DNA of 33,537 bases from Luteolibacter sp. (GTDB lineage: Bacteria; Verrucomicrobiota; Verrucomicrobiia; Verrucomicrobiales; Akkermansiaceae): assembly GCA_021298895.1 (NCBI GenBank), contig JAJTHK010000053.1, forward strand, positions 1 through 33,537, read 5' to 3'. The notes under the pieces were generated by a model. That model ran no database searches and was not told the DNA's origin. It worked only from the letters and a program-made list of their open reading frames with translations. Position numbers and translations under genes: made by a program. Positions 24,943-29,736 of this stretch are shown piece after piece (within the stretch, counting starts at the first letter, position 1; every line of letters begins with the position of its first letter).

Positions 24943-25881
24943 ATGATAAATCGCATCGTAAATCTATTCTGGCTTTGGACGATTTTAGGTGTCGCTTGGG
25001 CATGGATTTTCCCTAGCCATTTCACTTGGTTTCTTGGTAAAATTCCAGGCACTGAAATTGGACTCATTTCCGCAGGACTCGGCATCATCATGTTAGGCAT
25101 GGGTATTACTCTGAGTTTCGAGGATTTTCGCGACTGCTTCAAAATGCCACGCTGGATTACTCTAGGAGTCGCTGGGCAATTTGTTATCATGCCTTTTCTC
25201 GGTTGGACCATTGCCACGATATCAGGTTTACCCAATGAATTCAAACTCGGCATCATCCTCGTAAGTTGCTGTCCTGGCGGAACCGCTTCCAACGTTGTGA
25301 CGTTTCTCGCTAAAGGAAACGTCGCTTTGAGTGTGATCATGACGGCTTGTTCAACTCTCCTCGCCGTCTGGCTCACTCCGCTTCTAACAAAAGCTTATGC
25401 ATCAGCTTTGCTTGAGATCGATGCATCCGCGATGATGCTTTCCATGCTCGGCATCGTCTTGTTACCTATCATCGGCGGCCTCCTACTCAATCGCTATCTC
25501 GGCTCCGCGCTGCGCCCCGTGAAAGAATTCTCACCAGTCATCTCTGTTTTCGTGATCGTGCTTATTGTCGCAGCCACCGTCGGCGCAACCAAACCTTCCA
25601 TCATCACCTACTGGAAAACCCTCATCCCTGCGGTCTTCGCCGTGCATGCCCTTGGCTTCGGGCTGGGTTATTTCTGGGCGAAGTTTTTCCGCATGCCAGA
25701 AAAGGAAAGCCGCACGGTTTCGATCGAGGTCGGCATGCAAAACTCAGGTCTCGGTTCCAGTTTAGCGAAAACTCATTTCACCATGCTTGCAGCTGCTCCC
25801 TGTGCGATCTCTGCATTTTTCCACTGCATTATCGGCAGTCTTCTAGCCAGCTACTGGGGCAGGAAAAAATCTAAATTTTAA
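24943..25881 (+). CDS. Bile acid:sodium symporter (BASS) family transporter
   Basis: A 312-residue protein with about nine membrane helices. Family landmarks are GLGIIMLGMGITLSFEDF, SCCPGGTASNVVTFLAKGNVALSVIMTACST (sodium-site crossover region) and VEVGMQNSGLGSSLA-like near residue 265 (IEVGMQNSGLGSSLAKTHF). The length is typical. Bacterial members carry organic anions such as bile acids, pyruvate, pantothenate or 2-keto acids; the substrate here is unknown. It starts 5 nt after glgB and is almost certainly co-transcribed with it. It converges on the small zinc-ribbon gene, with only 27 nt between the stop codons. Confidence 0.9.
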   Translation: MINRIVNLFWLWTILGVAWAWIFPSHFTWFLGKIPGTEIGLISAGLGIIMLGMGITLSFEDFRDCFKMPRWITLGVAGQFVIMPFLGWTIATISGLPNEFKLGIILVSCCPGGTASNVVTFLAKGNVALSVIMTACSTLLAVWLTPLLTKAYASALLEIDASAMMLSMLGIVLLPIIGGLLLNRYLGSALRPVKEFSPVISVFVIVLIVAATVGATKPSIITYWKTLIPAVFAVHALGFGLGYFWAKFFRMPEKESRTVSIEVGMQNSGLGSSLAKTHFTMLAAAPCAISAFFHCIIGSLLASYWGRKKSKF

Positions 25882-25908: not shown

Positions 25909-26037
25909 TCAAACCCCGCAACACGCGGATACTTCATGGACGCAGTTTTCGCAGAGATATTCTTCACCTATCAGTCCAAGGGCATCTCCACCACATCGAT
26001 CACAGGGTGCTGGTTCTATTGTGGATTCTTCTGTCAC
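25909..26037 (-). CDS. Micro zinc-ribbon-like protein (42 aa), overlapping rseP
   Basis: A 42-residue frame beginning with GTG (26037-26035), which overlaps the rseP stop as GTGA. The protein has an acidic N-terminus (TEESTIEPAP), then CDRCGG, GEEYLCENCVHEVSACC. The two CxxC pairs (Cys12/15 and Cys29/32) plus a terminal CC suggest one bound zinc. The tight 4-bp overlap, compact cysteine pattern and short convergent spacing to the BASS gene support a real gene rather than chance. I recall small Verrucomicrobiota proteins with similar C-x2-C...C-x2-C...CC endings, unverified. Function unknown; being coupled to rseP, it may be made with the membrane protease. Confidence 0.65.
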   Translation of the reverse strand: MTEESTIEPAPCDRCGGDALGLIGEEYLCENCVHEVSACCGV

Positions 26038-27452
26038 TCCGCGAACTTTATTTCATCCGCTGATTCGCCCCCACCTCTGCCAAATTTATCTCCAATATCT
26101 TTACTAGTCACATAGAGCATTAGGGAAATTAGCGCCAACGCACATGCAGTCTGAATCACTTCCATGGTCTTCATCTCCATCGGCTTACCAAAAATTTTCT
26201 CAAGAATTGCCATGGTGATATGTCCACCATCCAACACCGGAAATGGTAGCATGTTTAGCACCGCGAGATTCACATTGAACAACACCAAGAAACTTAAAAT
26301 CCGTCTCCATCCATTCTCTGTTTGTAATAAGGTAAATAGAACTTCTCCAATACCCACAGGCCCACTGAGATCATCCAAACCAATACTGGATTTGCGGTCA
26401 GCCACTTTCGTAACCGTAACCCACATCATTTTCAAACTGTCAGCCACTTGAGTAAATGGATCCGGGTTAACGAGTCTCACATCGACTTCTGATTTAGTAT
26501 TCCACCTGACACCAAGCATTGGATCAAGCTTGGATGGAGGTAATGGCTTCGCTGGTGTCACTTCAATTTTTACCAATTCACCGTTCTTTTTCTTAACGTC
26601 CAAGACAACTGATTTAAAATCCTTTTTCTTCAAGTATTGCGCAAGCTGACCTGCACTGAAGAGATCGTTACCATTAACTTTAAGTATCTGATCGCCCTTT
26701 TTCAGCCCAGCTTTAGCAGCAGGACTATTTTTTATTACCGTCTCAACGATTGCTGAGCCTTGATGATCGATACCAACTTGGCGCAAACCTCCTCGTTGAT
26801 ACCATTCCGAATCTTCAATTTTAAATTTACACGGCAGCTCGAGAAGCTCTTCGACACCTGGTCTCTGGACTTTAAATGTAATACTATCACCACTACTCAA
26901 AATAATCCGTTCCATCACACTATCTAACGATCCCATAAAACCATTTACAGGCTCACCATTGATCTCAAGGATTTTGTCCCCTGGAAGAATCCCAGCTACC
27001 TCGGCTGGGAAACCTTCTTCCACATATCCCACCACCGTACTCGGAACAAAATCCTTCGGTTTTCCTACTTTCCAAACAATCACCCCCGCCAACAGCGCGA
27101 GCAAAATGGAAAACAGCGGCCCAGCGAACGCGACGATGATTTTATCGAGAGGCGTGATCGGCGGTAGCCGCTTGCGGTTTTTGTCACCACCTTCAATCGC
27201 CTCCATCGGAGCCATCTGCGGCAAGGCCACAAATCCACCCGCCGGAATCCAACCCAGACCGTATTGTACACCCTTGTATTCCTTTTTCCAAATTGGCTTT
27301 CCAAACCAAATCTGGAACCGATCAATCTGTAACCCACGCCATTTGCCAGCTAAGAAATGCCCCAACTCGTGAACAAAAATGATAATATTGAAAAGCATCA
27401 CCACCACGAAAATGAGAAGGGCGACATTGAGAACGGTTTGGAGAGTGGACAT
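26034..27452 (-). CDS. rseP: RseP-like site-2 zinc metalloprotease
   Basis: A 472-residue intramembrane protease of the RseP/YaeL group, which cleaves anti-sigma factors or signal-peptide remnants. Zinc motif HELGH lies in the first membrane helix (28-32). Two PDZ domains occupy about 140-310 (the second contains SPAAKAGLKKGDQILKVNG). The third zinc ligand is in FPVLDGGH (Asp408). Membrane helices are near 8-30, 105-130, 375-400 and 430-448. The length is slightly above the E. coli protein (450). It is divergent from recG, and its stop overlaps the micro zinc-ribbon gene. The ATG at 27452 has no Shine-Dalgarno sequence. Confidence 0.93.
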   Translation of the reverse strand: MSTLQTVLNVALLIFVVVMLFNIIIFVHELGHFLAGKWRGLQIDRFQIWFGKPIWKKEYKGVQYGLGWIPAGGFVALPQMAPMEAIEGGDKNRKRLPPITPLDKIIVAFAGPLFSILLALLAGVIVWKVGKPKDFVPSTVVGYVEEGFPAEVAGILPGDKILEINGEPVNGFMGSLDSVMERIILSSGDSITFKVQRPGVEELLELPCKFKIEDSEWYQRGGLRQVGIDHQGSAIVETVIKNSPAAKAGLKKGDQILKVNGNDLFSAGQLAQYLKKKDFKSVVLDVKKKNGELVKIEVTPAKPLPPSKLDPMLGVRWNTKSEVDVRLVNPDPFTQVADSLKMMWVTVTKVADRKSSIGLDDLSGPVGIGEVLFTLLQTENGWRRILSFLVLFNVNLAVLNMLPFPVLDGGHITMAILEKIFGKPMEMKTMEVIQTACALALISLMLYVTSKDIGDKFGRGGGESADEIKFAE

Positions 27453-27644: not shown

Positions 27645-27672
27645 GATACGAGCTGCGAAAAAGTCTTCCTTG

Positions 27673-29736
27673 ATGTTTCCATCGCGAAATTTGAATTTAT
27701 CTTCCGTGATCACTGGGCAAACCGAACTCTCCTCCCTGCCCGCCCTCTCGGCGAAAGAAATCCAGGCGCTCGCCGCCGCCGGCATCACCACTATCGCCAA
27801 TCTGTTAGAATATTTTCCAAAGCGCTACGAGGATCGACGTCAATTCGATCGCTTTCCCAATCAGGCCACAGCCAAATCTGTCTGCCTCACTGGAGGAGTG
27901 ATTGATGCCGGCAACAAGGGATTTGGGAAAATGCGTTTTTACGAAGCCATCATCATGGATGGTTCCGGCAGCGTTTTTGGATCCGGAAAAGTGACCTGCC
28001 GTTGGTTCAATATGCCGTTCATGTCAAAAGTGATCGCTGCCGGCCAGCAGGTGATCGCTTACGGAAAAGTCAAAGAACAAGGCGGACGCCTCATCATCGA
28101 TCACCCAGAAATCGAAGTCATCGATGACGATGGAGAAACCGAGACCATCCATCTCAACCGCATCGTTCCGATTTACAAAAATATCTCCGGGATCAACCAA
28201 CGCCGACTAAGGGAGGCTATCTACGTGGCTGCGGATTGCATCCGCCATGCCAATTATTTTCCCTACCTAGTTAGCGAGTCGGATCGAAAAGCCGATTTAA
28301 GAGAAACCCATTTCCCCTCCTCCGCCGAATCTGCCAAAGCCGCCCGCCGACGCTTTGCGCTCGAAGCTTTTTTCAATCTCCAACTCAACGTCGTCTGGCA
28401 GCGCAACCGCTACCGTTCCCACCAAGGTCGCGTGCTTGGGAAAAAAACCACCTTACTCAAAGCGTTTTACTCCAGCCTGCCCTTCGATCTAACAAACGCA
28501 CAAAAACGCTCGATCAAGGAAATCATCGCCGACATGCGCGAGTCTCGCCCGATGAATCGACTTCTCCAAGGCGATGTCGGTGCTGGAAAAACCTTCGTAG
28601 CGATGGCAGCGATGCTCCTTGCGATCGATTCCGGCGCCGATGCCGCGCTGATGGCTCCTACTCAAATTCTCGCCGAACAACATTTTCTCACCTTCAAAAA
28701 ATGGCTTGAGCCGCTGGGGGTGAAACTCGTTCTCCGCACAGCGAATAAACACGAGTCCACCATCGCCGAGTCCCACGCTCCAACCATTTTCATCGGCACC
28801 CACGCCCTGCTTTACGATCCCGAACTTTTCACCGACCTCGGCCTGGTCGTCATCGATGAACAACACAAATTCGGTGTCGTCCAACGCGCGGCGCTCATTC
28901 GCCACGGCACGCTGCCCGATGTCCTCGTCATGACCGCAACGCCCATTCCGCGCACTCTGACCATGACGATCTACGGTGACCTCGATGTCTCTCTGCTCGA
29001 TGAAAAACCTGCGGGTCGGGGAAAAATCATCACCGCCCTCCGCACCAAACCGAAACAAAAAGACATCACGGATTTCGTCAAAGCCCAGCTCGCCGAAGGT
29101 CGCCAAGCTTATCTGGTTTATCCCTTGGTCGAGGAAAGCGATTCCATCAAAGCCGAATCTGCCACCGAAGCTTTCACCGCATGGCAGAAACGCCTGGGAG
29201 CTGAAAACGTCGGGCTCATCCACGGCAAACTCCGCCCCGAAGAAAAAGACGCTGTAATGGAAGATTTCCGCAGCGGGAAAACCCAAGCTCTCGTTGCAAC
29301 ATCCGTGATCGAGGTCGGGGTCGATGTCCCAAATGCCAACCTGATGATCCTCCACCACGCCGAACGTTTCGGTCTCGCGCAACTCCACCAGTTGCGCGGA
29401 CGGATCGGCCGAGGCGAACACAAATCTTACTGCATTCTTCTAACTGATTCTAAATTGCCCGAAGCTCTCGAAAAACTTGCGGTGTTAGAAAAAACCAATG
29501 ATGGCTTCGAAATCGCCGAAGCCGATCTCGAACTGCGTGGTCCTGGCGATGTTTTGGGCACCGCACAATCTGGACTCACCGACCTCCGCTTCGCCGATTT
29601 CATCACCGATACCCAACTCATCCGCGAAGCCCGCGCCCTCGCCGATCAGGTTTTCCATGAAGACCCAGATCTTTCCAAAAAACACCAGAATCTCCGTGAA
29701 TTAATCGCAGAAGCCGAGGCGCCACATAATGCCTAG
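27673..29736 (+). CDS. recG: ATP-dependent DNA helicase RecG
   Basis: A protein of about 687 residues. The N-terminal wedge domain (OB-fold, about 60-180) begins with the helix-hairpin segment LAAAGITTIANLLEYFPKRYEDR. Superfamily-2 helicase motifs follow: GDVGAGKT (I), DEQHKFGV (II), TATPIPRT (III), then LVEESD, GLIHGKLRPEEKD and VATSVIEVGVDVPNA, with QLRGRIGRGEHKS (VI). The C-terminal RecG segment has DLELRGPGDVLGTAQSG. It reverses stalled forks and processes Holliday junctions. The length matches E. coli RecG (693). The ATG at 27673 is directly preceded by an in-frame TTG; a GTG 15 codons in (27715) is another option. Confidence 0.95.
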   Translation: MFPSRNLNLSSVITGQTELSSLPALSAKEIQALAAAGITTIANLLEYFPKRYEDRRQFDRFPNQATAKSVCLTGGVIDAGNKGFGKMRFYEAIIMDGSGSVFGSGKVTCRWFNMPFMSKVIAAGQQVIAYGKVKEQGGRLIIDHPEIEVIDDDGETETIHLNRIVPIYKNISGINQRRLREAIYVAADCIRHANYFPYLVSESDRKADLRETHFPSSAESAKAARRRFALEAFFNLQLNVVWQRNRYRSHQGRVLGKKTTLLKAFYSSLPFDLTNAQKRSIKEIIADMRESRPMNRLLQGDVGAGKTFVAMAAMLLAIDSGADAALMAPTQILAEQHFLTFKKWLEPLGVKLVLRTANKHESTIAESHAPTIFIGTHALLYDPELFTDLGLVVIDEQHKFGVVQRAALIRHGTLPDVLVMTATPIPRTLTMTIYGDLDVSLLDEKPAGRGKIITALRTKPKQKDITDFVKAQLAEGRQAYLVYPLVEESDSIKAESATEAFTAWQKRLGAENVGLIHGKLRPEEKDAVMEDFRSGKTQALVATSVIEVGVDVPNANLMILHHAERFGLAQLHQLRGRIGRGEHKSYCILLTDSKLPEALEKLAVLEKTNDGFEIAEADLELRGPGDVLGTAQSGLTDLRFADFITDTQLIREARALADQVFHEDPDLSKKHQNLRELIAEAEAPHNA

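Follow-up and report, generated by a model that had tools for sequence, protein, structure and literature searches.

The window (the whole stretch of 33,537 nucleotides analysed here) carries a short, cysteine-rich gene on the minus strand, directly behind and overlapping rseP. The relevant features are as follows.

24943..25881, plus strand: SBF-type transporter gene, convergent with the small gene at a distance of 27 nt; outside the unit
25909..26037, minus strand: small gene of 42 aa, GTG start at 26037, stop at 25911-25909, pattern CxxCG-x12-CxxC-x6-CC
25918..26004, minus strand: six-cysteine core (87 nt), which defines the family pattern
26034..26037, minus strand: GTGA overlap of the small-gene GTG start with the rseP TGA stop
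26034..27452, minus strand: rseP, encoding a PDZ-containing site-2 protease; first gene of the two-gene unit
27670..29736, plus strand: helicase-like gene (recG, named by eye from the ORF), divergent, upstream of rseP at the other end of the unit

Translated with GTG as start, the small gene reads MTEESTIEPAPCDRCGGDALGLIGEEYLCENCVHEVSACCGV, in which C12, C15, C29 and C32 form two CxxC knuckles; the plus-strand translation of 25909-26037 is unrelated to this peptide. The initial annotation, which named no strand, had described a 42-residue CxxC...CxxC...CC frame with a four-base overlap between its GTG start and the rseP TGA; both the frame and the overlap (GTGA at 26034..26037, minus strand) were borne out. 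The cysteine-spacing pattern has a single match in the window and none in 100 dinucleotide shuffles, more than chance would give. The identity of RseP was established with TIGR00054 (226.2 bits, above the cut-off of 147.55); Peptidase_M50 (PF02163) and PDZ domains were also matched. For the transporter gene, SBF scored above its cut-off and TIGR00841 below (255.2 bits, cut-off 326.3). In 6 other coupled loci, rseP is likewise preceded by an ORF similar to the recG-like one; the cluster of these ORFs also takes in an unrelated helicase (L137). No second copy of the small gene was found in the genome of the window (G000; 2.76 Mb in 190 contigs, 89% complete), and a promoter and terminator scan around the two-gene unit gave matches only at the level expected by chance.

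Conservation of the small gene and history of its pairing with rseP

When 59 genomes (G000 plus relatives) were searched at the protein level, six genomes of the same genus gave homologues, with E-values from 7e-14 to 7e-6. In five of these (G016, G021, G032, G005 and G004) rseP lies directly upstream; in G022 it does not. Further coupled genomes were obtained by scanning rseP loci (G078 and G075) and by profile search (G092). Overall, a homologue was found directly downstream of 9 of the 57 rseP genes of the genus that were examined; of these 57, L060 is cut off at the stop codon and L317 extends only 183 nt past it. The homologous frame behind rseP in relatives, on which the initial annotation had staked its proposal, is present in these nine genomes. 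Stop and start codons overlap in 8 of the 9 (GTGA in 2, ATGA in 2 and TGATG in 4), and G092 has a 4-nt gap. Purifying selection, also raised in that annotation, was assessed on the 30-codon core of eight genomes, placed by its cysteine pattern. The dN/dS (NG86) was 0.07-0.18 in the 10 of 28 pairs with unsaturated dS, and pN/pS was 0.17-0.35 in the other 18 pairs, where dS was saturated; codon positions 1, 2 and 3 were variable in 13, 11 and 30 of the 30 codons, respectively. The low dN/dS indicates that selection acts on the amino acids of the small gene.

The frame is very short and starts with GTG, as a chance ORF or a mere translation-coupling element might. That it encodes no protein is nevertheless extremely improbable, given the selection on its amino acids, the absence of the cysteine pattern from all 100 shuffles and the residues kept in homologues far from rseP. 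On this sequence evidence, the small gene is near certain to be a genuine protein gene, and it is probably translated by stop-start coupling to rseP.

To trace the history of the pairing, a quick maximum-likelihood tree was built from 57 RseP proteins. Eight coupled genomes grouped with G008 and G082 (SH-aLRT 100), and the ninth, G075, fell outside this group; 34 of the 57 genomes in the tree are without any family member. The raw count is 4 changes of the small gene, at least 3 of them forced by well-supported branches, and one of the 4 arises because the rseP of G075 (L055) is a mosaic. Its first ~180 residues match the local clade; the remainder, comprising the PDZ and C-terminal parts, is a better match to a divergent lineage such as G022. 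Both flanks of the locus stay local (85-93% DNA identity to G005, G008 and G082). The small gene was thus kept in G075 despite replacement of most of RseP, and its persistence while the PDZ and C-terminal parts were swapped argues against a finely matched RseP partner.

Inside the coupled clade, G008 and G082 have rseP and lack the small gene, and a profile search of these drafts (79% and 87% complete, respectively) found no member elsewhere. In both, a short stretch containing GCGGATT-ATCCGCC-type palindromes comes after the rseP stop; it gives way, at a similar position, to the sequence found downstream of the small gene in G005 and G075. Once G075 is explained by its mosaic rseP, a single gain behind rseP followed by two apparent losses, in G008 and G082, would fit; this is our own reading of the sequences.

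The GCGGATT-ATCCGCC repeat gave 39 to 93 matches per genome in G000, G005, G008, G075 and G082 with at most one mismatch, and the control gave 0 or 1; both strands were counted, so that palindromes often count twice. The copy in the window lies at 28231-28246, inside the recG-like frame.

In the genomes compared, the link to rseP is lineage-specific, belonging to one clade of one genus. The coupling to a site-2 protease, taken in the initial annotation as suggestive of a linked role, therefore stood in part: the small gene does overlap rseP and run in the same direction, but a general link did not hold, with the pairing in 9 of 27 genus genomes, two apparent losses, the swap in G075 and unrelated neighbours elsewhere.

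Distribution and neighbourhoods of the wider family

Profile A1, built from rows chosen with a looser cysteine filter, matched 28 of the 73 genus genomes at E≤0.001, and 27 of these hold true members; the match in G003, ComF-like by eye, was rejected. The gene lies behind rseP in 9 of the 27, and 18 are without rseP in the fetched flanks. Across a phylum sample the profile matched 48 of 387 genomes, a rough figure (up to 18 candidates were scored per genome, and the weakest rows lie in long frames and are doubtful). Class-wide, 41 of 286 genomes matched at E≤1e-5, and 21 of 146 did so in another order of the same class (up to 23 and 46 candidates scored, respectively). An exact-pattern scan of a genome collection (84,980 species) yielded at least 118 stretches. 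Among the 118 listed, 56 hold a member of at least 40 bits, the next best scoring 21.7; these 56 comprise 52 from Verrucomicrobiota, one each from Lentisphaerota and Kiritimatiellota, and 2 without an assigned phylum, and the other 62 stretches come from many phyla. The same scan of viral contigs gave 67 stretches, in which the best frame with the protein pattern reached 22.5 bits and was not counted as a member. Judged among the matches listed, the family is likely absent outside Verrucomicrobiota and close kin.

Alignment A3 had been picked by cysteine pattern, and cysteine conservation was therefore judged on the profile matches. Among the 54 best-scoring profile A1 loci, L088 proved not to be a member; the six cysteines noted in the initial annotation were kept in 52 of the other 53, one member being without the last cysteine, and two members were without the glycine. 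The net charge was negative in all 57 aligned members (median -6). Matches of these 57 to Pfam were weak (18 families at E≤0.1, best E 8.5e-5); the commonest family, DUF7685, was matched by 17 of the 57 (best E 0.00038), with an example score of 18.6 against a cut-off of 27. NCBIfam likewise gave weak matches (best E 1.2e-4). For some members bit scores were compared with the curated cut-offs, and all were below; the remaining members were judged by E-value alone. Literature searches found no paper on this cysteine-rich family. The family is thus likely uncatalogued and novel, in that these searches point to no convincing Pfam or NCBIfam model.

Neighbouring genes were examined for 117 distinct members with flanks, 110 of which had at least 700 nt upstream. 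No neighbour is common to the whole family; the largest clusters comprise 9 of the 117 loci, and rseP is one of them. Different clades have different upstream genes, and in representative loci those on the same strand include recJ, pnp, an era-like gene, lipoamide dehydrogenase and cytochrome c oxidase subunit I. Most member loci are without a recognised stress gene alongside. Searches of all-frame ORFs and with tblastn placed an NsrR-like regulator at most 133 nt from the motif in 5 of the 117 loci, pointing the same way as the member in four (L145, L155, L119 and L375) and opposite in one (L208, an Opitutaceae genome); two more such genes lie at 1.0 and 4.9 kb from members. The regulator is of the Rrf2 type, with NsrR as its best NCBIfam model, and scored above the Rrf2 superfamily cut-off and below that of NsrR. 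With the L155 gene as query, the copies of L155 itself, L375, L145 and L119 were 68-100% identical to it; the likeness of the copies in four of the five loci suggests that they may represent one ancestral arrangement.

An HxlR regulator is directly upstream, within 39 nt, in 2 of the 117 loci (best NCBIfam models RrpB and RrpA, both below their cut-offs). L145 has two RIC/ScdA-like genes, 0.7 and 1.4 kb from its member; in L155 the distances are 2.6 and 3.4 kb. A ferredoxin/flavorubredoxin-reductase-like gene adjoins the member in L145, with a similar, divergent one in L094, and lipoamide dehydrogenase is directly upstream in L332, with a similar one in L159. Two genomes of one family encode the finger as an N-terminal fusion to a macro domain (L092, 1498-2148, plus strand; L093, 985-1626, minus strand; L157 looks like the same stretch as L093). 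The macro domain of L092 is O-acetyl-ADP-ribose deacetylase-like (226.9 bits, cut-off 200); among the loci examined, no standalone macro-domain gene was found beside other members, the fused cases being the only ones. As a separate observation, ECF-sigma-like genes (identified by eye) that resemble each other stand close to the finger gene in both L181 and L208, on the other strand.

Predicted fold and candidate function

AlphaFold2 was run with the 57 sequences. The model of the window peptide (pLDDT 77.4) has a hairpin at 21-23/26-28 and, starting from the second CxxC, a helix at 30-40; that of a longer relative, L172 (pLDDT 72.5), has the same elements. Both models show a knuckle CxxC, a beta hairpin and a CxxC in the first helix turn, and this combination of a CxxCG knuckle, a hairpin and a helix at the second CxxC is the layout of a treble clef, not of a ribbon. 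The fold is accordingly predicted to be a treble clef. In zinc ribbons, both knuckles sit in beta hairpins and there is no helix at the metal site. The term 'zinc-ribbon-like' of the initial annotation was therefore dropped, since the helix in the models (pLDDT 77.4 and 72.5) is predicted to start at the second CxxC.

A Foldseek search with the model gave no match at E≤0.001; its non-significant rows were to uS14, nuclear-receptor C4 fingers, B-box and LIM domains and, lower, CsfB (E 2.6 and 0.47). In a second structure comparison two B-box entries came first (Z 3.8 and 3.6), and many nuclear-receptor C4 fingers superposed at 1.6-2.0 Å over 34-36 residues (Z about 3), a similarity that is not significant as homology. 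The rows for L172 were mostly uS14 (best Z 3.6, at large rmsd), and uS14 was also first when the sequence profile was compared with the PDB (E 0.0013). As modelled, these fold and profile matches point to a fold class, not to family membership.

The reading that we favour, which as a whole has about an even chance of being right, is that the small protein is a free-standing acidic metal-finger adaptor, perhaps stress-linked, encoded at operon ends and not an obligate partner of RseP. Members of the family would on this account be acidic and mostly free-standing metal fingers of Verrucomicrobiota, ~40-70 residues long, with a predicted metal site. The two CxxC pairs would bind one zinc (or iron) ion, and the vicinal Cys-Cys further along the helix, which we assume to be free, would be available for oxidation, metal capture or dimer formation; it could instead join the metal site in the real fold. 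Being acidic and short, the protein would bind other proteins, as adaptor or sensor, rather than nucleic acid. The NsrR-like and RrpB-like neighbours in some other lineages suggest that its use may be tied to redox or other stress, and their adjacency lends some support to a metal- or redox-sensing role, which is possible. In the clade of the window, the position behind rseP should couple expression of the small gene to that of the protease. The small protein may also act on RseP directly, though the data can be explained without this.

A bolder version, which we regard as improbable, would make these private Verrucomicrobiota treble-clef micro-proteins interchangeable, thiol- or metal-switched adaptors. 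The CxxC/CxxC site would hold the fold, the Cys-Cys pair would sense NO, oxidants or metal, and the switched protein would hand a client to a protease or regulator; lineages would then wire the sensor to different outputs through its place at operon ends, to rseP, to NsrR-like or RrpB-like regulators, to pnp, recJ or respiratory genes, or, by fusion in one family, to an ADP-ribose macro domain.

Three other roles were weighed against the metal-finger adaptor. A dedicated RseP partner would bind RseP or its substrate and tune intramembrane proteolysis according to metal or redox state. The gene does stand directly behind rseP in 9 genomes, overlapping it in eight, and it held its place in G075 although most of RseP changed. 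However, the G075 PDZ and C-terminal parts come from another lineage, G008 and G082 retain rseP while the gene is missing, the family is missing from 34 of the 57 genomes in the rseP tree, rseP does not occur in the flanks fetched around the member in 18 of the 27 genus genomes that have one, and many other neighbours occur across the phylum; we hold this role to be improbable. A small protein of the CsfB or ClpX-finger type, serving as anti-sigma factor or adaptor in proteolysis, would act on the pathway opened by RseP, in sigma release or fragment hand-over. Profile comparison with the ClpX fingers of relatives gave a score of 21.3 (probability 60%), which none of 200 cysteine-preserving shuffles reached (best 20.0), but a single DksA-type sequence in the same comparison had a probability of 30%, and 1 of 200 shuffles did as well. 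ClpX-ClpP and ClpG entries appear among the weak fold matches (Z 3.0 and 3.1), and CsfB, which shares the cysteine layout as far as described in the part of PMC5890618 consulted, appears among the non-significant ones. Neither a Gin nor a ClpX family is among the 18 Pfam families listed for the 57 members at E≤0.1, the hairpin is five residues shorter than in ClpX, and most members lie away from rseP and from sigma genes, which makes this an unlikely assignment.

The third role is that of a mononuclear iron protein of the rubredoxin or desulforedoxin type, an electron carrier with its iron on CxxC plus CxxC or CC and fed by a flavoprotein. The flavorubredoxin-reductase-like flavoprotein beside the member in L145 (and the similar one in L094), the lipoamide dehydrogenase directly upstream in L332 (similar in L159), and the NsrR-like regulator and RIC/ScdA-like genes near the member in L145 would all be consistent with it. 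Yet few loci have such neighbours, no such flavoprotein stands beside the gene in the window, a helix predicted to start at the second CxxC fits a treble clef better than two rubredoxin knuckles, and no rubredoxin-type model is among the Pfam and NCBIfam families listed for the 57 members. We consider this role quite unlikely.

If the metal-finger adaptor is the right description, a phylum of environmental, gut and soil bacteria owns an uncatalogued family of metal-finger micro-proteins, short enough to fall below common annotation cut-offs. Testable entry points are offered by the stress regulators, the site-2 protease, the RNA and DNA processing genes and the macro-domain fusion in two genomes. 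The coupled rseP clade provides a natural comparison, with relatives that have the gene, relatives that have apparently lost it and one with a partly swapped RseP.

Comparison with known systems

Several known systems resemble the family in part. The uS14 protein of type Z tops the PDB profile matches (E 0.0013) and is the NCBIfam model with most members (4 of 57, best E 0.00012). uS14 proteins are basic and without CC, whereas the family members are acidic; membership was rejected, with the window peptide at 15.8 bits against a cut-off of 54 and the 4 matches weak. Desulforedoxin, some 40 residues long, holds one iron on a CxxC and a vicinal CC and has no other cysteines. The family shares the small size, the CxxC and the vicinal CC, but has a second CxxC in between, and its predicted fold differs; with two further conserved cysteines between CxxC and CC, it falls outside the definition of desulforedoxin.

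The N-terminal zinc finger of ClpX (PF06689) serves AAA+ proteases. It resembles the family in its CxxCG, hairpin and [IL]CxxC with helix; the family differs in a hairpin 5 residues shorter, the lack of an AAA+ fusion and the extra CC. PF06689 was not among the 18 Pfam families listed for the 57 members at E≤0.1, and membership was rejected for want of a match to it. Proteins of similar size and fold serve AAA+ proteases, and others control sigma factors, so that the role of the family could be regulatory. The example for sigma factors is the Bacillus anti-sigma factor CsfB (PMC5890618, from a partial text). It has a knuckle cysteine pair and a second cysteine pair in the first helix turn and, like the modelled family, is a small free-standing treble clef with the same layout of cysteine pairs (CsfB/Gin, PDB 5N7Y; same partial text), to which the family adds the vicinal CC on the helix. 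The Gin family was not among the 18 Pfam families listed for the 57 members at E≤0.1, and membership was rejected, no Gin sequence match having been obtained.

The redox-regulated chaperone Ruc (Rv0991c) is likewise small, holds one zinc on cysteines and is encoded near proteostasis genes in many bacteria, according to the portion of PMC7448276 consulted. Ruc is described as having a zinc-ribbon domain, a disordered C-terminal half and a distribution across many phyla (PMC7448276, same portion); in contrast, the present family is a predicted treble clef with an extra CC that, among the matches listed, belongs to Verrucomicrobiota and close kin.
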